DNA of 64,000 bases from Rhyzopertha dominica (Eukaryota > Arthropoda > Insecta > Coleoptera > Bostrichidae), in contig QCXZ01000041.1 of NCBI GenBank assembly GCA_025024175.1, forward strand, positions 6,443,786 to 6,507,785, read 5' to 3'. This document shows positions 14,058 to 63,035 of this stretch, piece after piece. A model generated the notes under the pieces. It ran no database searches, was not told the DNA's origin, and saw only the letters and a list, made by a program, of their open reading frames with translations. The position numbers were made by a program, and so were the translations under genes. The first letter of the stretch is position 1. Every line of letters starts with the position of its first letter.

Positions 14058-14275
14058 ACAAAAATGTTCGGACATCAACTGATTTTTCGTAAAAGTTTGA
14101 AAATTTCCATAAGGAATTCAATATCATCTTTTTCTTTTATAGGACACTATAATATGTATTGTTTTACATCATATTTACGACATTGTTTTGAAATAACACA
14201 ATATTTATTTATAAAACTAAACTAATGTGGATAACAATACAATAATTATTGACACATAAATGTTTTTACAAGCTT
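14058..14275 (+). repeat. Tc1-like terminal module, copy A
   Basis: Begins GACACAAAAATGTTCGGACA and ends near GACACATAAATG. It matches copies B and C in inverted orientation over nearly its full length. Confidence 0.85.
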
Positions 14276-15284
14276 TTCGCAATCTTCCGCGGTAGAAGAA
14301 TCCCATATATTTTGCAGTTTTACGCGCAAATCAGAAATGTTGCACTGCGGATCATTTCTTAATTGCTGTTTCACCTTGTGCCGTATAGTTTCGATTACAT
14401 TTAGATCAGGACTGCTGGAGGGCCAGTCAAGGACGGAAATGTTGTTGTCTTGCAGCCACCTTCTTGTGGTCTTGGCTGTATGGCAGGAGGCGCTATTTTG
14501 TTGAAAAGTAAAATTTTCATGAGGTGATAACATTGGAATTGACACCAACAAATTGGTTTCAAGAATATTCTGATATTTCACTGCGTTTACAGTTCCGTCT
14601 ATGAAGTGCAGTTTTCCAACACCATTAGCAGACATGCTTCCCCATGCCATAACACCTGATGGAATTTTATTTTTCTTTTTAGGCAGTCTTTGTGGAAGGC
14701 TTCATTTTTGTTTCTTATAACACGTGATCGATGGTCACCCACGTAAACATCAAATCAAATTCATCACTAAAAATGATCCTTTTCCAATCTTCGAAAGTCC
14801 ACAATGCCCGTTCCTTTGCCCACGCTAATCGTCTCTTTTTTTTTTGTTTTTCCGTGAGGAACGGCTTTTCTTTTGCCTTAAGCAATGATAATGATGAATA
14901 TGAAATTTTGCTTAAACATAACATACGTACCTTATAAAAATGTAAACCAGATTTATGAATCTAGTGACGACACGTTTCTCGTGAAACATTGCCCATTGTT
15001 TCTTCATTCCATTTTGCTGTTATTTCTCTTAACGTACTTCGACGATCAGTTTTACAAATCCGAACAAGGCATCTTTGCATTCTGGAAGTGATTTTGCATG
15101 GCCGACTAGCACCATGTCTTGAAATTGGAATTGAACTCGTTTCTCTATACTTTTTCACAATATCTGACACCGTGGACTTTGCGACATTTATTTGCTTAGC
15201 AATATCCCGAAACGTTTTTCCTTGGTGAAACAGTTTTACAATTAATTCTCCGATTGCACGATTAGTTGCTTTACCGCGTGACAT
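14246..15284 (-). pseudogene. Tc1-like (DD34E) transposase, broken
   Basis: Cut-and-paste transposase. The N-terminal part at 15284-14961 starts with ATG (MSRGKATNRAIGELIVKLF) and holds the paired-type helix-turn-helix (DIAKQINVAKSTVSDIVKKY). The middle piece at 14924-14715 includes the first catalytic Asp (FSDEFDL). The last part at 14650-14246 carries LDWPSSSPDLNVIE with the catalytic Glu. The usual QQDNAPCH is QQNSASCH here, so the second Asp is Asn; counting 34 residues from it to the Glu gives the DD34E spacing. Frame breaks between the three pieces also disable it. The upstream terminal module begins about 105 bp before the start codon. Confidence 0.85.
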
Positions 15285-15388
15285 TTTGTAGTCAATTGAT
15301 ATCTAATCGACTTAATTGTCAAGTTAAAAGTCACATGGAAACATATTCTTTTTATTCCAAGGATTGCTATTTATTTGTTTTACTAACG

Positions 15389-15999: not shown

Positions 16000-17860
16000 G
16001 AAAATATATTTTACAGATATTAAGATTTAATTTCATATCAATAATTTAAAAAAATCACACACGACCCTGCTTCATATAAGAAGAATTCAATGTTACCACT
16101 ATGGTAGATTGCAACAGCGTTATTGCACAAAAACAGAATAAAGCGGAAGTACGTTCATTAAGGCCAAGGAAAATGGAAATTATGCCACATAACCAAATTT
16201 GAACATCACGAATAAGTAAAGTGTGTGGATGTAAATATAAAATCAGATAAACTGACAGGATGTCAAAAGTTACCTAGTAGCCATTACAGGAACTACTTGT
16301 TGCAGGAAGTGACCTGTAGTCTGACAAGTTAGCATACACCTGCATACGTCAACTTAACAGGCTGGCGGGCATTTTTGTTCGACTTACAATACATTTGCAG
16401 TTTCAGAACAATTTAGCAAGAAGGCAAGCACACTACCTAATGGTATAACGAACAAGCTGAAGTCGGGTAGTATAAGAAAAAGCATGAAAGTGATGAAAGC
16501 ATAACAAATGATTTAAGAATAACCAATAACGACAAACATACGCCTATCTTTATGTTGGATATTTTGGCAGAGCTACTGAAAGTAAAAGGCACGACACGTT
16601 TACACTCCTTGAAACAACCGCAGTCATATTGAGCGCATTATTAGCTTAGTCCTCTAATGAACGTATTGTTCTTATAATGAGCCGCCCGCTCGTTATTAAC
16701 CACTGTAAACGAACAAAGTCTGGAATTCACGCTCGGTCTCAACCGGTACAGTTTAGAGCGCCTTTGAGTCGGGTCCCAATTGACACGATATTCCAACATT
16801 AATTTTTGGCCACCCTGAGGGAGCGGCTAAACACCTCAGCCTTTCGGAATGAATTATGATGCAAATCCGAAAGCGGTTTCCTGTTGGGAAAACATTGATT
16901 TAATCAATTTGTCCCCTGCTGCATTTGCAATTCGAAACGAAACACAGAGGAACAAAAGTTCTGTAACGCACGACCACAAAAGCAGGTTTGTTTGCTTTAC
17001 AACAATGCTATTGAGGCTGGTGTATTGATACTTTGCGGCGAATTTCGATACCACTGTGGCGAGGTATTTGGATATTCCGCGCATGTGGACCAACATTTAT
17101 GTCTGGTTTTACTTACATTTTGGAATGGGCATATCGGCGAAGAGTGGTGCCTTACCTGTAATAAAAGCATATATGTTAGTATCATCGAGTAAGGGGGATA
17201 GATAGAATACGGACAATTTAAAGTTTTAAAACTTAATGCTAAATGCATAAAATAGCAATCGTTTTATAGATCATAAAGTATAGACCGCGTAAGAAAAAAT
17301 TGCGGTTTGAAATTAAAAGCACCACATTATAAGAAGTCTGTCCAAATATCAGATTTTTCATACGATTAATGTGCACCTTAAAAGGAAACTTTATCGTACA
17401 CGTAGAAATATTTCACGAAAACATTCTTGTTAAACTATTTAACTAATCATCACAGGGCAGTATAGAGTTAAATAAATATACATTTTAACAATTATGTACA
17501 TTCCGTATTTTTTGGGCTGAAGCGTACATTTCTTTTTGGCAATTAGGACATCACTGACCAAATGAGACCAAAAAACGTCATCCAACTTTCTGACCGTTTT
17601 GCGAAGAATCTTAAGAGCAGTGGAGTTACTGTTGACGAAATATACAAGGTACTCAGTTTTATTCAGCCTGATGTAACGTATGTGCCATAATATTTGGCAC
17701 AAAATTCGGACTGAAAATTTTCCACCTCCTGATAATTTTAACCAAACTTTTATGTTACGCTATTATTCACGCTACTTTCATCTATCTTATAAACCAATTA
17801 GAGCAAGGCAAAAGGCTAGTGGTTCGCAACCACGCGCACACGTCGCCGGGTGTCATTCAT
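16000..17860. other. Unassigned interval with a host-like island
   Basis: Mostly AT-rich sequence without motif. The stretch 16660-16960 has balanced composition and resembles the other host-like islands. A hairpin (GTGCCA, 7-nt loop, TGGCAC) lies at about 17682-17700. No reading frame of note. Confidence 0.3.
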
Positions 17861-20511: not shown

Positions 20512-20741
20512 AGTATATAGTGACAGACAATTATTGCCTGAATTCGATTTTAATGAACGTAGATGATAGTGCCGTCTGCACTAGACCTAAACTGTACTGA
20601 TGAGCTATAATGATAGCGAAATAAATCTATTTGCAGTTGGTTGCGGTGCAGATAGTACATCATAGATATGCATTTGAATGTAGATGATATTTTAATTTTT
20701 AAAACGAATTCAGACAATAATCTGTCGCTATATATAGTATA
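20512..20741. mobile_element. Inverted-repeat unit carrying hammerhead ribozyme A
   Basis: Imperfect inverted arms of about 40 bp (20512-20553 and 20699-20741) share GACAGA, TTATTG, CTGAATTCG and TTTTAA blocks. Inside them, a 14-bp direct repeat, GAACGTAGATGATA at 20555-20568 and GAATGTAGATGATA at 20676-20689 (one mismatch), brackets a 107-bp core that contains the ribozyme. The simplest reading is that a small ribozyme-bearing unit inserted into a hairpin element and duplicated 14 bp of target. The mechanism is inference. Confidence 0.55.
20574..20653 (+). ncRNA. Hammerhead ribozyme, type I (copy A)
   Basis: All invariant core positions are present. CTGATGA lies at 20597-20603. Stem II is GCTAT/ATAGC (20604-20608 with 20613-20617) with an AATG loop. 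GAA at 20618-20620 and A20621 follow. Stem III is ATA/TAT (20621-20623 with 20628-20630) with a 4-nt loop, then U20631 is the cleavage-site base. Stem I has an inner helix AACTGTA/TGCAGTT (20590-20596 with 20632-20638, one G-U) and an outer helix GTCTGCAC/GTGCAGAT (20574-20581 with 20646-20653), with a 7-8 nt internal loop between, the usual partner of loop II. Predicted cut between 20631 and 20632. Stem II covaries with copy B. Animal hammerheads of this kind occur in retrozymes and Penelope-like elements. Confidence 0.88.
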
Positions 20742-28081: not shown

Positions 28082-28288
28082 TAGTGCATAGAGCAGATTT
28101 GTTACTTTACTTAACATATAGTTCCATGCCGTGCTGTCTGCACTAAACCTAAACTGCACTGATGAGCTGTAACGACAGCGAAATAGATATATCTGCAGTT
28201 AATTGCGGTGCAGACAGTATAGCATATGCATGCATTTTAAATTATTTAGTATAGTAAATCTACATACGTATACCTATAATATGCACTA
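28082..28288. repeat. Weak inverted-repeat context of hammerhead ribozyme B
   Basis: TAGTGCATA at 28082-28090 is mirrored by TATGCACTA at 28280-28288, and AGATTT/AAATCT blocks lie further in. The span (about 207 bp) is close to that of the arms around ribozyme A (230 bp), but the arm sequences differ. The right arm abuts the start of the next dispersed repeat. Suggestive only. Confidence 0.3.
28134..28217 (+). ncRNA. Hammerhead ribozyme, type I (copy B)
   Basis: The core is complete. CTGATGA lies at 28159-28165. Stem II is GCTGT/ACAGC (28166-28170 with 28175-28179) with an AACG loop. GAA is at 28180-28182. Stem III is ATA/TAT (28183-28185 with 28190-28192) with a GATA loop, followed by C28193, giving a canonical AUC cleavage triplet. 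Stem I has an inner helix AACTGCA/TGCAGTT (28152-28158 with 28194-28200) and a 10-bp perfect outer helix CTGTCTGCAC/GTGCAGACAG (28134-28143 with 28208-28217), with internal loops of 8 and 7 nt. Predicted cut between 28193 and 28194. Compared with copy A, the fourth stem II pair changes from A-T to G-C on both strands, a compensatory change that supports structure over chance. Confidence 0.9.
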
Positions 28289-32235: not shown

Positions 32236-32410
32236 TATGAAAAAGTATTGCTAGTTTTGACTGGAAATCGAACGCACGGCCTTTTGACGTCTAATCCGAA
32301 TAGGGCTTTGGCAGTGCATTGGTTAGCAAGTTTGACTAGCACTCATACGGTCCCGAGTTCGATTCCCGGCCAAAGCTGGAAATACTTTTTCATAACATGT
32401 GTTAGCCCAA
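32236..32410. repeat. tRNA-derived SINE in palindromic arrangement (copy 2)
   Basis: The right half is a SINE head at 32305-32376 plus tail (AATACTTTTTCATAACATGT). The left half, 32232-32275, is an inverted copy of the SINE 3' part: complement of GTTCGATT, CCAGTCAAAACTAGC, AATACTTTTTCA. The two halves face each other across about 90 bp, giving inverted arms of roughly 43 bp. Confidence 0.65.
32305..32376 (+). tRNA. tRNA-like SINE head (Ala-AGC-like anticodon), not a functional tRNA gene
   Basis: A 72-nt cloverleaf can be drawn. The acceptor stem GCTTTGG/CCAAAGC is perfect (7 bp). The D arm is TGC/GCA with loop ATTGGTTA. The anticodon arm TTTGA/TCATA pairs 4 of 5 around loop CTAGCAC, anticodon AGC. 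The T arm CCGAG/CCCGG pairs 4 of 5 around TTCGATT, with a good B box (GAGTTCGATTC). Because the flanks downstream are shared with the copy at 25190, and an inverted partial copy lies beside it, I read it as the head of a tRNA-derived SINE. A real tRNA-Ala would have a different acceptor stem. Confidence 0.5.
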
Positions 32411-39238: not shown

Positions 39239-41300
39239 CATATTTATTTATTTATTTATTGACCTTTATAAAATACACATAATATCGTAAAGGTAAGTCA
39301 GAAATATAAGTAATCACAAATTAATTGAAGAAGACACAGAATTGCCCCATGGGAGCACATAACAATAATAATAAAACATATAAAACATCAACCTATTATA
39401 GTACATATTTAAAAAGTGAAATCAAGAAATTCCTGGATGGAGTAGAAAGCATTGCATATAAAAAAATTTTTAGATATGTTTTATATTGAAGAGTGTTCAT
39501 TTGCCTAACATGTGCTGGTAACTTATTATACAGTTTTGTGCAATAAAACTTTACAGCTGNCCGTGATTTTTGAAGCCTATGAAAATCGTTAATTGGCAAT
39601 TGTTTAAATCTGGTGTGATGTTCATGGTCTATATATCCAAATGTAAAGCAACTATCTTTAACATAAACTAGACAGTTATACATGTATAAACTTGGAAAAG
39701 TCATAATTTTAAGTGTTGTAAAACTTTTGCGGCAGCATTCTCTATATTTTAATCCGTTCACGACGCGTACACATCGCCGCTGTAGAGCAAATAGAACCGA
39801 TGTATGAACTGAGTGACCCCATACCAATACACCATAGGAGAGCAAACTCTGGATGTACGCGAAGTAAGCCGTCCAACACGACCCCTGTTGATACTTTGGT
39901 CTTCAATTGTCTTATGGCATACAATCTCGAAGAGATCCTTTTGGAAATATACCGAATATGCGACTCCCAAGTTAATTTTGAATCGATTTGTACACCTTAA
40001 TGTTTAATTGGTTCGCTTTCTTCAAAAGTGTTTCTTAATGAAAAGATTATATGATGGGTTTTGTTGCTATTTATACATAATTTGTTTGACTCAAACCATT
40101 TTTGAACCTAGTTGTCAGCTGAATTTATTTGCTCTTTTAAAAAACAGGTGGAATTTTCTTTATTGTATGTTACATATTGATATCGATCACTAAGGAAACT
40201 ATTTATCAAATTTACGCTGCCCTCATCGAAACCGTATGATGAAAGCTTCTCGAGCAAAACTGAATGTGATAAACAATCGAATGCTTTTGTTAGATCATAG
40301 CAAGAGGTAAACCCGTGTTCTTTATTTTCAAAAGTTTCAATGACTCTGTCTGAAAGCTCTAGGAGCGCCTTAGAAGTTGATTTGTTGTCTCTAAAACCAA
40401 ACTGACTAGTTCTGAAGAGATTATTATTTTCAAAGTAATCAGTTATTTGCCTTCTAATTAGCCTCTCAAATATTTTTGATAGTATCGGAGTCAGTGAGAT
40501 GGGGCGATAATTCGATGGATCATTACAGTTATTTTTTTTGTAAACAGGAATGACTTTGGAAAGTTTTAGAGTTTCAGGAAAAGTGTTATGTAGAATGCAC
40601 TCATTAATTAAATTTGTGAGAGGTACAATAATAAGGTTTTTTTTGGACTTTATCATTTTTACATTGATGTTGTAGGCATCTGTACTGCTGGAGTTTTTTA
40701 TATTGTCAATTGCTGATCTAACTTCTATGTAAGATACTTTCCTAAATGTGAATCGATTATTTGTTTTTGGTTTTGAGTTGGAAGGTTTAGAGCTCTGTGA
40801 TGAATTAGGAAGACTGTCAAGAATTTTCCGGGCTGCATCGGTAAAGTAAGAATTAAATGCATCAGACGTCAAGTTTGACTCTGGACAAGAGTTTGTTCTA
40901 TTTTTTATAACTCCATGCAGCGGAGTTTTTATTGTTAGATTTTTTAATGTATTCATCATTGGCTTTGACCTTTGCAGCTCTAAGAGATGATCTATAGCTA
41001 TTTTTAACAATATTAAAGTCTTTTTTGGCGATAATATTGTTTTTGTATAGAGAATGCGAAAATTGGACTTGTTTTCGCAGGTATCTTAGATCGTAATTAA
41101 ACCAATATAACTTGCTTTTACCTTTCTTATTAGTAACAGTTTTTAAAGCGAAACACTTGTCCACCTCGCGTTTCAGAATGTCTATGAAAGATTTAAATTT
41201 TGTGATACAAGTCGAGTGTTTGTCTTTAGTAAACGTCCAGTCTGTACTTTCAACAAAGTTGTAGAAGTTGTTAAGACCATAATTATTCATAATTATTTTA
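39239..41300 (-). mobile_element. 5'-truncated non-LTR retrotransposon with (AAATA)n-type tail
   Basis: Read on the minus strand: linker (41290-40898), RT (41010-40108), post-RT region (40107-39396), and a TAAATA-repeat tail at 39260-39239 preceded by AATAAA-like words. The endonuclease is absent, so the copy is 5'-truncated near 41300. The best preserved LINE of the window. Confidence 0.88.
39396..41290 (-). pseudogene. ORF2 of Jockey/CR1-type LINE, RT with catalytic-loop deletion
   Basis: The 300-codon open piece (41010-40108) carries KVIPVYKKNNCNDPSNYRPI, then SLTPILSKIFERLI, QFGFRDNKSTSKALLELSDR, CYDLTKAFDCLSHSVLLEKL with the first catalytic Asp, and LINSFLSDRYQYVTYN. It then jumps from STCFLKEQ straight to VQKWFESNKLCINSNKTHHI, so the segment with the GPLLF and YADD motifs is deleted. 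The C-terminal piece (39845-39396) has YGVLVWG, ALQRRCVRVVNGLKYRECCR and LPAHVRQ. One frame break (about 39880) and one stop separate them. Without YADD the product could not reverse transcribe. Confidence 0.88.
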
Positions 41301-45429: not shown

Positions 45430-46580
45430 CCTCAAAATATAAAAGTAGTCACGTTTCTTAATTTAAATAATTTTATTATTTTTTAGGAATTTATATTAAA
45501 CTTATAATACAGAATCATTTATTTATGTATTTTTAACAATTTTAAAATTAAAATATATTTGAACATGTTGTAGGTACTGCCATTAATATGTAAATGTGTT
45601 CAAAATTAAAGTGGTTAATAAAAAGATCGTAATAAATAACTGACTTGTACTAATGCTGCATAACGTCGTTGCATACTGCGAATAAGCTTTCGGAAGTCTT
45701 GAATACGTCTCCCTAGCTGATCCCAAACATGCTCGATTGGATTCATGTCTGGGCTGCATGCAGGCCAATCCATTTTTCGAATATTTCGATTGTTAAGATA
45801 TTCAGTTACGATTTGGACAGTATAGGGTCTAGCATTATCATGTATTAAGATAAAATTTGGACGTCACCTGAGACTCTAGAATTTCGTCAATGTACCTTCG
45901 AGCTGTCAGTCCACCATTGCGAATGATAATAAGCTCGGTACGAGTGTGAATTGTTAAATTGTTATCCCACCCCACACCATTACGGATCCACCACCAAAAG
46001 CAACTGTTCTCCAGGCTTCCTCCAGATTCTTACACGTCCATCATTACCGGACAGAACTTAAACGCATCACTAAACAATACAGGTGACCAATGACGAAGTG
46101 GCCAGTTTAGGTGTTCTCTTCCAAATTGAAGTCTTCGGTGACGATATTCTCTGCTCAATTTGGAAAGTTTTGTGGGACGTCTTGATCTTAAATAAGCCTC
46201 TCTGTGTCTATTACGTACAGCTTGATGGCTAATTACTGTTCCTCTTGCTCTCAGGAAGACGGCTACGATTCTCACTGCTTTCAGTTGCAAAAACCGGTCA
46301 TCGTTTAGGGTGGTGTGCCTTCTACGACCCGTACCTATTCTTCTCGTTACGGAACCAGTCTCGCTATATGTTTTCCAAAGCTTCCAAACAGTTCCTTGGA
46401 CCACTTCAAGCTGTTGGACAACATAACGGTGAGAATATCCCTCTTGAAGTAACATTACGGCTCTAGTAACTTGTATCGAAGTTAATTGCTTCTTTAGAAT
46501 GACACAATGCAATATGACAGATTTAATGTTAATTGACATTAAAATTGTTTGTCTGGTTTCCATGGTAATCATGATTCAAT
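45430..46580 (-). mobile_element. Tc1-like element remnant
   Basis: Contains a near-complete broken transposase on the minus strand. The candidate left terminus is ACTCCTCAAAATATAAAAGT at about 45427-45446. I could not find its inverted partner upstream of the gene, so the 5' end is lost or diverged. Confidence 0.7.
45572..46572 (-). pseudogene. Tc1-like (DD34E) transposase, broken
   Basis: The 180-codon piece (46572-46030) has the N-terminal HTH (VTRAVMLLQEGYSHRYVVQQ, GTVWKLWKTYSETGSVTRRI, then GTGRRRHTT) and the first catalytic region (WSPVLFSDAFKF). A middle part follows in shifted frames (IIIRNGGLTARRYIDEIL). The end carries ILIHDNARPYTVQIVTEYL, then MDWPACSPDMNPIEHVWDQL. From the Asp of HDNARP to the Glu of NPIEHVW are 34 residues: DD34E. 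The SDE motif reads SDA here, and two frameshifts break the middle. The two distal catalytic residues are intact. Confidence 0.85.
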
Positions 46581-62179: not shown

Positions 62180-63035
62180 ACCTATAAATGTTTTTACGAA
62201 ATTTTTTACCTATATTATGTAATCTACTTTATTCTTCTATTGTAGAGCGCTTTCGGCTATTTCGGCTACAAAGTAGCCATCATCGGTACAATCAAAAGCT
62301 ATAAATGAAGAAAAAAACGTTTACAATTAGTTTGACAAGTCAAGAATTTAGAAACAAGCAAACTTGAGTACAAGCAAGAAATTAGGATGGCAGTGTCATC
62401 TGTCAGCATTACACTGACATGATGACAAAGCCACATGCATTTTAAACTTGAGTACAAACCAAAAGCAACCTACATATAGCAACATAAACGTAATATTAAT
62501 GTAAATCAAATAAATGATTTAGAACAGGTCAACTGAAATTACGAGAATCGTATAAAATAGTAAAATTTTGTTGGCTAATAATTCTAATTAGAGGTAAAGA
62601 ACATTTAAAGCAATTCGAAAGGTATAAAAATACAGATATTGTGACAACAAATTCATGGTTAGCTAACCATTTTTTTTAAATGAGCACATTATCACACTAG
62701 ACAATTTAAATGCATTACATTCGTGCAGCAAATATCAAAATTAAATTTTACTGCTTTAAGCGATTCATGTAATTTCAACAGTCATGTTCTAAATTATTTA
62801 TTTGCTCTAAATTAATATTACGTTTTGTGTTGCTGACGTGTAGGTTGCTTTTGGCCTGTGGTCAAGTTTGTTCTAAATTTTTGACTTTGTCAAACTAATT
62901 GTAGAAATTTCTTTTCTCTTTATTCATACCTTTTGATAGTACTGATGATGGTTACTTTGTAGCTGAAAGCGCTCTACAATAAAAGAAAAAAGTGGATTAC
63001 ACTTAAAGTAGAAATTTCATTATATACCTTTCCAA
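62180..63035. mobile_element. Foldback-type element with arms of about 300-400 bp
   Basis: Left arm about 62180-62590 and right arm about 62725-63035 are inverted copies. Matching blocks: TGTAATCTACTTT/AAGTGGATTACA, TTGTAGAGCGCTTTCGGCT/AGCTGAAAGCGCTCTACAA, ACAAAGTAGCCATCATC/GATGATGGTTACTTTGT, AACGTAATATTAAT/ATTAATATTACGTT, CAAATAAATGATTTAGAACA/TGTTCTAAATTATTTATTTG. The spacer is about 130 bp. No coding. Part of the arm resembles 6960-7025 in the element at 6440-8241. Confidence 0.8.

Follow-up and report, generated by a model that had tools for sequence, protein, structure and literature searches.

Two type I hammerhead ribozymes, copy A and copy B, lie on the forward strand of the window, the whole 64,000-nucleotide stretch of Rhyzopertha dominica DNA analysed here, and inspection together with a structural descriptor confirmed them at the places and in the form given by the first-pass annotation (Table 1). 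Both copies present CUGAUGA and GAA-A, a stem II of 5 bp, a stem III of 3 bp with a 4-nt loop, and a two-part stem I made of a proximal helix of 7 bp, an internal loop, and a distal helix. Measured against the general hammerhead core, both contain CUGANGA...GAAA, stems I, II, and III, and UH before the cut, and both are open at stem I. A strict descriptor applied to both strands of the 64 kb matched A and B only, while 120 dinucleotide shuffles gave a mean of 0.017 matches of any kind, with a maximum of 1, and none with stems of at least 5/3/6 bp. Chance as the source of the pair is rejected by the descriptor and the shuffles, as had been argued at first, and the common origin of the two copies is upheld. 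In copy A position 17 is U and the second pair of stem I is a U-G wobble, and because of these two features it may, on prediction, cleave poorly.

Table 1. Retrozyme pieces, hammerhead parts, and other features of the window (u, position in the consensus unit)
Feature	Position	Strand	Remarks
Copy A, 5'-truncated retrozyme fragment	20569-20678	+	u242-351; 89% to consensus
Copy A, left target-site duplication	20555-20568	+	reads GAACGTAGATGATA; the right copy, GAATGTAGATGATA, differs at 1 position of 14
Copy A, right target-site duplication	20676-20689	+	overlaps the last bases of the element
Copy A, hammerhead core	20597-20631	+	CUGAUGA through U17; predicted cut after U20631
Copy A, stem II	20604-20608/20613-20617		
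Copy A, stem III	20621-20623/20628-20630		
Copy A, proximal stem I	20590-20596/20632-20638		
Copy A, distal stem I	20571-20581/20646-20656		one mismatch
Inverted repeat around copy A	20530-20553/20698-20721		24 nt, 88%
Copy B, 5'-truncated retrozyme fragment	28120-28240	+	u231-351; 91%; end CATGCATTTTAA
Copy B, hammerhead core	28159-28193	+	predicted cut after C28193
Copy B, stem II	28166-28170/28175-28179		
Copy B, stem III	28183-28185/28190-28192		
Copy B, proximal stem I	28152-28158/28194-28200		
Copy B, distal stem I	28133-28143/28208-28218		
Copy C, whole insertion	62360-62457		
Copy C, antisense piece ending at site 2	62372-62433	-	about u134-195; 92%; no ribozyme
Copy C, site-1 end	62434-62445	+	12 nt, CATGCATTTTAA, head to head with the antisense piece; by eye, below the BLAST filter
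Copy C, left target-site duplication	62360-62373	+	AAACTTGAGTACAA; identical to the right copy, 14/14
Copy C, right target-site duplication	62444-62457	+	
Copy D, old family fragment	16248-16360	-	u47-158; 79%; no ribozyme
Broken transposase frames (DDE_3, Tc3-type helix-turn-helix) and LINE-type reverse transcriptase frames	14246-15302; 46030-46575; 40108-41085; 1021-1416	-; -; -; +	
tRNA-like sequence	32304-32378	+	Rfam 43.5 bits; ARAGORN tRNA-Ala AGC

The pair had been thought to sit in no recognisable element, a view that a search of the 479-Mb assembly (138 contigs) with copy B overturns, revealing a dispersed retrozyme-like family with at least 41 matches spread over 13 contigs when 40 of 1372 first-look candidates were scored (the 1372, like the 1361 given below, counts first-look candidates and is not a copy number). 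The majority of 19 segments defines a consensus unit of 351 nt with 45% GC and one type I hammerhead, numbered u1-351, in which CUGAUGA starts at u270 and the predicted cut follows u304. Units of about 350 bp also stand in tandem, with three hammerheads in line in L008/L009 and two in L006, L012, and L016; runs reach three units at most among the loci examined, and the first unit is truncated in every run seen. Judged by their sequence, A and B are decayed, 5'-truncated members of a non-LTR retrozyme family. The neighbourhood in the window is rich in old mobile elements, with broken transposase and LINE-type reverse transcriptase frames and the old family fragment, copy D. A short inverted repeat surrounds copy A; the loop of a short hairpin element, older than the copy, seems to have been its insertion site. 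Copy B presents no convincing target-site duplication (best score 6), and among 3000 flank pairs drawn at random from the window, 2 scored as high as the duplication of copy C.

A covariance-model search did not yield the expected hit above threshold, an outcome that the first-pass annotation had listed as refuting the ribozymes. At the Rfam gathering score no hammerhead family was found in the window, and tRNA was the only match in its whole length; the tRNA-like sequence could be a tRNA gene or a tRNA-derived SINE. The best Rfam match of A, B, and the copies in three further loci is RF02275 Hammerhead_HH9, which at relaxed E-values gave 26.4 bits (E 0.025) for B and 21.4 bits (E 1) for A window-wide, with an E of 0.0065 for A when 401 bases were searched, and 28.5-29.2 bits (E 0.0005-0.0008 in 9.3 kb) for the three genomic loci. 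The gathering score of this model is 52, and at 21-29 bits A, B, and their relatives are therefore not members. Because A, B, and the better-kept relatives all match HH9 under threshold, the Rfam negative is weighed below the structure, and we read the low score as a limit of the model and not as a missing fold.

Compensatory change, proposed at first for A and B, is borne out across the family. The core alignment comprises 33 rows of best-matching copies, 22 of them distinct (copy A plus 32 of 45 rows; duplicates, partial copies, and L031-L040 omitted), and 97.7% of its cells pair. Two-sided changes occur in 3 of the 28 scored pairs and occupy 6 cells, whereas shuffles give 0.8 cells, none of the 500 attaining 6, and every slid control gives 0; since the rows are related, the events are fewer than the cells. 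When pairs are counted instead of cells, 9 of the 500 shuffles attain 3, and when further pair types are counted there is no excess over shuffles (292/500). The changes are G-C to A-U in distal stem I (L006b and L020b), G-C to A-U in the fourth pair of stem II (A and L007), and GAUC to GUAC in the palindromic loop III (L006b and L014b), where 2 of the 28 scored pairs are palindrome positions that pair only between two molecules and are not pairs of the fold. The outer pair of this palindrome is broken in four rows. The contrast first noted at the fourth pair of stem II, A-U in A and G-C in B, is correct as an observation but is not an event between A and B; as the family consensus is G-C and L007 has the same A-U, the pair in A is inherited subfamily variation. 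Relatives that break the core, named by the first-pass annotation as speaking against the ribozymes, do exist, in 5 of the 33 rows (L003b, L005, L006b, L010, and L019) against 28 intact, as counted by eye, and core decay after insertion is expected as normal for a mobile element.

The stem III consensus is the palindromic AUAGAUCUAU, with a GAUC loop whose palindrome is lost in both A and B. A weak stem III, a palindromic tetraloop, and a unit of 330-350 bp are likewise described for the satellite-type hammerheads of newt and axolotl (PMC7229834, in its account of these elements); by the text of that paper, the axolotl stem III has 1-2 bp, compared with 3 bp here. A weak stem III capped by a palindromic tetraloop makes a dimeric double hammerhead possible, and cofolding of two cores predicts such a structure, with a stem III of 10 bp. 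Folded as a circle, the consensus unit has a predicted energy of -146 kcal/mol, with a z of -9.2 relative to 100 shuffles.

Insertion ends, taken as outer BLAST boundaries, were surveyed in the best-matching copies at 40 loci, 37 genomic and 3 in the window; L001, L009, L017, L041, and L042 were dropped as duplicates or overlaps, and copy D as an old fragment. The pieces lie head to head at 22 of the 40 loci. In 20 of these 22, site 1 (u348-351) forms one end and site 2 (u193-213), 154 nt away, forms the opposite one, while the two exceptions, L025 and L033, end at u167 and u141 in place of site 2. The same site at both ends was met at none of the 22 in this survey, which found its loci via the ribozyme side, so that copies with site 2 at both ends could escape it. 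The BLAST filter classed copy C as single-strand, and with its short site-1 end the whole insertion makes the two-end rule visible inside the window.

Target-site duplications accompany most head-to-head copies. Repeats were scored at 36 of the 40 loci (L016, L023, L038, and copy C omitted), and a direct repeat score of at least 9 was reached at 19 of the 22 head-to-head loci versus 16 of 1260 mismatched flank pairs, and two of 14 single-strand loci (L010 and copy A) reached it as well. The score is most often 13-14, and the duplications vary in length. In one of the 19, L022, the retrozyme sits in a TAT microsatellite, which fits AT-rich targets and makes its repeat uninformative. Given that 12 of the 14 single-strand loci, copy B among them, have no score-9 repeat, some insertions close another way.

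A second sample, queried with u1-196 to lessen the bias toward the ribozyme side, gave 1361 first-look candidates, 40 of them scored, from which ranks 3-12 (10 places) were taken, ranks 1 and 2 being L034 and L002. Both ends were in view in 5 of the 10, and 4 of these 5 (L073, L077, L079, and L081) combine site 1 with site 2; the exception, L074, combines u239 with site 2 and has no repeat. Repeat scores are 14-15 in L073, L077, and L081, L079 having too little flank, and in the remainder L075, L076, and L082 run off the stretch while L078 and L080 are single-strand.

The existence of copies longer than one unit points to a circular or tandem template. Derived variants are shared in 35 of 100 cases between pieces of the same insertion (25 piece pairs; of the smaller count), versus 98 of 2769 between insertions (673 pairs), as expected for one circular or tandem template per insertion. 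Mean identity is no higher within than between insertions (0.942 versus 0.941), so that it is the shared variants, and not identity, that carry the argument for the template. Many pairs within an insertion share no variant, the L037 pair aligns poorly, and duplication in place could also contribute to the sharing. As to the idea that one cDNA blocks the other, piece lengths inspected by eye show no peak at the 154-nt site distance.

A candidate for the enzyme behind these ends is abundant in the same genome. A search with the GIY-YIG profile gave at least 144 matches above the family cut-off (150 of 2080 candidates scored), many of them as opposed pairs. The reading frame at L061 contains RVT_1, and its GIY-YIG domain, at 33.6 bits in the genome search, is absent from the domain listing at E <= 0.001; among its 120 listed relatives, RVT_1 occurs in many and GIY-YIG in some. 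For two mobile-element proteins, the best-ranked named relatives are from beetles (Tribolium; Coccinella), with others from wasp, aphid, and non-insect animals. Thirty GIY-YIG loci (L043-L072), amounting to 28 to 29 distinct places because some overlap, were taken as a sample of these Penelope-like elements. The 3' end of the abundant family among them is either short (...AAAAATTA) or about 37 nt longer (...CAACAACTATA). An end query matched 21 of the 30 loci and found two ends in 10; with L063 set aside because the locus edge cuts it, and L070/L071 counted as a single locus, 8 distinct insertions remain with both ends in view. Each of the 8 pairs a short end with a tailed one, and their repeat scores, taken without a mismatched-flank control, are 10-15.

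The same arrangement of short and tailed ends is described for Penelope-like elements of Adineta vaga in the relevant part of PMC3846280, and in the part of PMC11167929 that deals with it, the Penelope-like PAc protein of Anolis cuts and extends both strands and starts cDNA at two internal sites. As characterized in those two accounts, Penelope-like elements resemble the retrozyme in their head-to-head inverted ends, partial tandems, internal reverse-transcription starts, and extension of both target strands, and they may carry a 30-40 nt tail at one end and short duplications of 8-10 bp. This insertion structure recurs in the retrozymes at 20 of the 22 head-to-head loci and in 4 of 5 in the second sample, in a comparison confined to retrozyme and Penelope-like copies, and is a parallel of structure only. 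The two differ in that Penelope-like elements code for protein, whereas the retrozyme codes for none; in that about 37 nt separate the Penelope-like termini, compared with 154 nt in the retrozyme; and in that the Penelope-like family of this genome is without CUGANGA, while the retrozyme keeps a full hammerhead. That the retrozyme is itself a Penelope-like element is rejected, its 351-nt unit having no room for a reverse transcriptase and GIY-YIG reading frame.

Nor did a Penelope-like source of the ribozyme come to light at the loci sampled. The descriptor, applied to the 30 GIY-YIG loci, met only the retrozyme in L067, Rfam searches of 8 of the 30 at E <= 10 gave no hammerhead, and BLAST of the consensus against all 30 found retrozymes in L062 and L067 only. 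At many Penelope-like loci a hairpin with GAAACGTC lies 3' of the GIY-YIG frame, with GACAAAG replacing CUGANGA (TTGAAGA in L057), possibly the remnant of a ribozyme whose core is lost and whose hairpin persists. Since the abundant Penelope-like family is without CUGANGA, the link between retrozyme and Penelope-like element does not run through a common ribozyme; nor was an end sequence common to both evident from four short words, the consensus BLAST against the 30 loci, or inspection by eye. A retrozyme lies within 1.5 kb at 2 of the 30 loci (L062 and L067), too few to form a basis for target preference. In L067 (2053-2514) a head-to-head retrozyme, with site 2 on the left and site 1 on the right, stands beyond a Penelope-like element, about 33 nt from the tailed end of the latter, and has its own 15-nt repeat with one mismatch.

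LINE insertions also show 5' truncation and 5' inversion, and retrozymes mobilised by a LINE, with head-to-head copies formed through LINE-style twin priming, would share both traits. LINE-type reverse transcriptase frames occur in the window (e.g., 40108-41085), and LINEs stand among the possible mobilisers in the discussion of PMC7229834. The observed ends agree poorly with this explanation, which we consider unlikely: two fixed internal RNA positions are used, one per end, in 20 of 22 cases; no A-rich or microsatellite 3' tail was seen by inspection of the retrozyme ends themselves (...GCATTTTA and ...CTTACTTA); a like asymmetry marks the Penelope-like elements of the genome, in 8 of 8; and a Penelope-like protein is reported to start internally on both strands (PMC11167929, in the part concerned).

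That the family is satellite DNA which owes its spread to unequal crossing over and merely carries the hammerhead along is very improbable and already largely against the data. The short tandem runs described above would suit it, and hammerheads are found in satellites of newt and cricket (PMC7229834, in the portion on these repeats; PMC2837043), but the copies are dispersed over 13 contigs with fixed end positions, those in head-to-head form are mostly flanked by direct repeats, and long arrays without insertion sites were not observed among the loci examined, whose runs hold no more than three units. Slightly less probable still is a foldback or MITE-like DNA transposon whose terminal inverted repeats are the head-to-head pieces, as the inverted halves and flanking duplications of many copies, and the position of copy A inside another short inverted repeat (20530-20553/20698-20721), might lead one to propose; the termini are two distinct sequences of one unit instead of a sequence and its inverted copy, the inner junction is variable, some copies exceed one unit, and the duplications are not of uniform length. 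Finally, a domesticated role for the ribozymes A and B, with a host transcript of this locus as their substrate, is barely credible, for although core and pairing are intact in both after their divergence, they are truncated members of a large family in DNA rich in transposable elements, each has lost the palindromic stem III loop, and A carries U17 and the U-G second pair in stem I.

The family otherwise resembles the animal non-LTR retrozymes of coral, mussel, and axolotl, stated to occur in insects too (Cervera and de la Pena 2020, PMC7229834), and all of their sequence-level features that were tested are present. In the sections of that paper describing them, these elements contain one type I hammerhead with a short stem III per unit; the unit measures 170-400 nt (351 here) with a GC content below 50% (45% here) and has no room for a protein; copies are both tandem and dispersed; duplications exceed 4 bp; the predicted circle is strongly self-paired; and Penelope-like elements occur in the same genome. 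Animal retrozymes also accumulate as linear and circular RNA, and for the present family the circle is a prediction from folding. The difference, as far as that account goes, lies in the two fixed termini, one per end, of head-to-head copies in the present family.

The explanation that we favour as a whole, at a probability of roughly 0.7, is that these are retrozymes that pass through ribozyme-made circles and are mobilised by a Penelope-like protein. Tandem copies would be transcribed, and the hammerheads would cut the transcript to unit length, alone or as a dimer via the palindromic stem III, an activity suggested by the predicted structure. The unit RNAs would then be ligated into circles, as the description of animal retrozymes in PMC7229834 suggests, and used in trans. 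A Penelope-like protein, with its reverse transcriptase and GIY-YIG nuclease, would bind the RNA and open both strands of an AT-rich target about 13 nt apart, and both target 3' ends would prime cDNA. One of these cDNAs would begin at site 1, which follows ...CATGCATTTTA and lies 46 nt beyond the cut; the second would begin at site 2, which follows ...CTTACTTA. The two cDNAs, which in some cases would exceed a unit in length, would be joined head to head, and repair would leave the target-site duplication. The end structures that underlie the priming and joining steps are observed in the insertions; cleavage, circle formation, and mobilisation in trans are what we infer from the family's sequences. 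The like end asymmetry, the similar size of the duplications, and the abundance of the autonomous element make the retrozyme look Penelope-inserted, and by analogy with the asymmetry of its own copies a Penelope-like protein probably makes the retrozyme ends.

Candidates named for the mobiliser of animal retrozymes are LINEs or Penelope-like elements (PMC7229834, in its discussion), and retrozyme repeats are described as having no conserved motif that would help to deduce the partner (PMC7761336, in the passage concerned). New here is how retrozyme copies end, with two fixed termini in head-to-head copies; no description of such two-site copies was found in the portions of the retrozyme literature searched (PMC7229834, PMC11722881, and PMC6155905 among it), and an earlier description is possible. 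The insertion ends are therefore evidence on which enzyme moves animal retrozymes, and those of the present family match the Penelope-like insertions of the same genome in their head-to-head layout, their one short and one long end, and the length of their duplications. Extended to animal retrozymes in general, we would put it at only a little better than even that they are non-autonomous partners of Penelope-like elements, whose protein would open both target strands and use two fixed internal sites on the ribozyme-made circle, each for the start of one cDNA and never one site for both, before head-to-head joining. The explanation predicts two exact start sites for the Penelope-like protein, u350 and u196, and the two-site rule offers a clue to the action of Penelope-like proteins, in a step whose study in vitro is recent (PMC11167929, in the part cited above). 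If the general reading is true, the two sites would be used unequally in a coordinated step of two subunits, one shared by Penelope-like elements and their ribozyme satellites.
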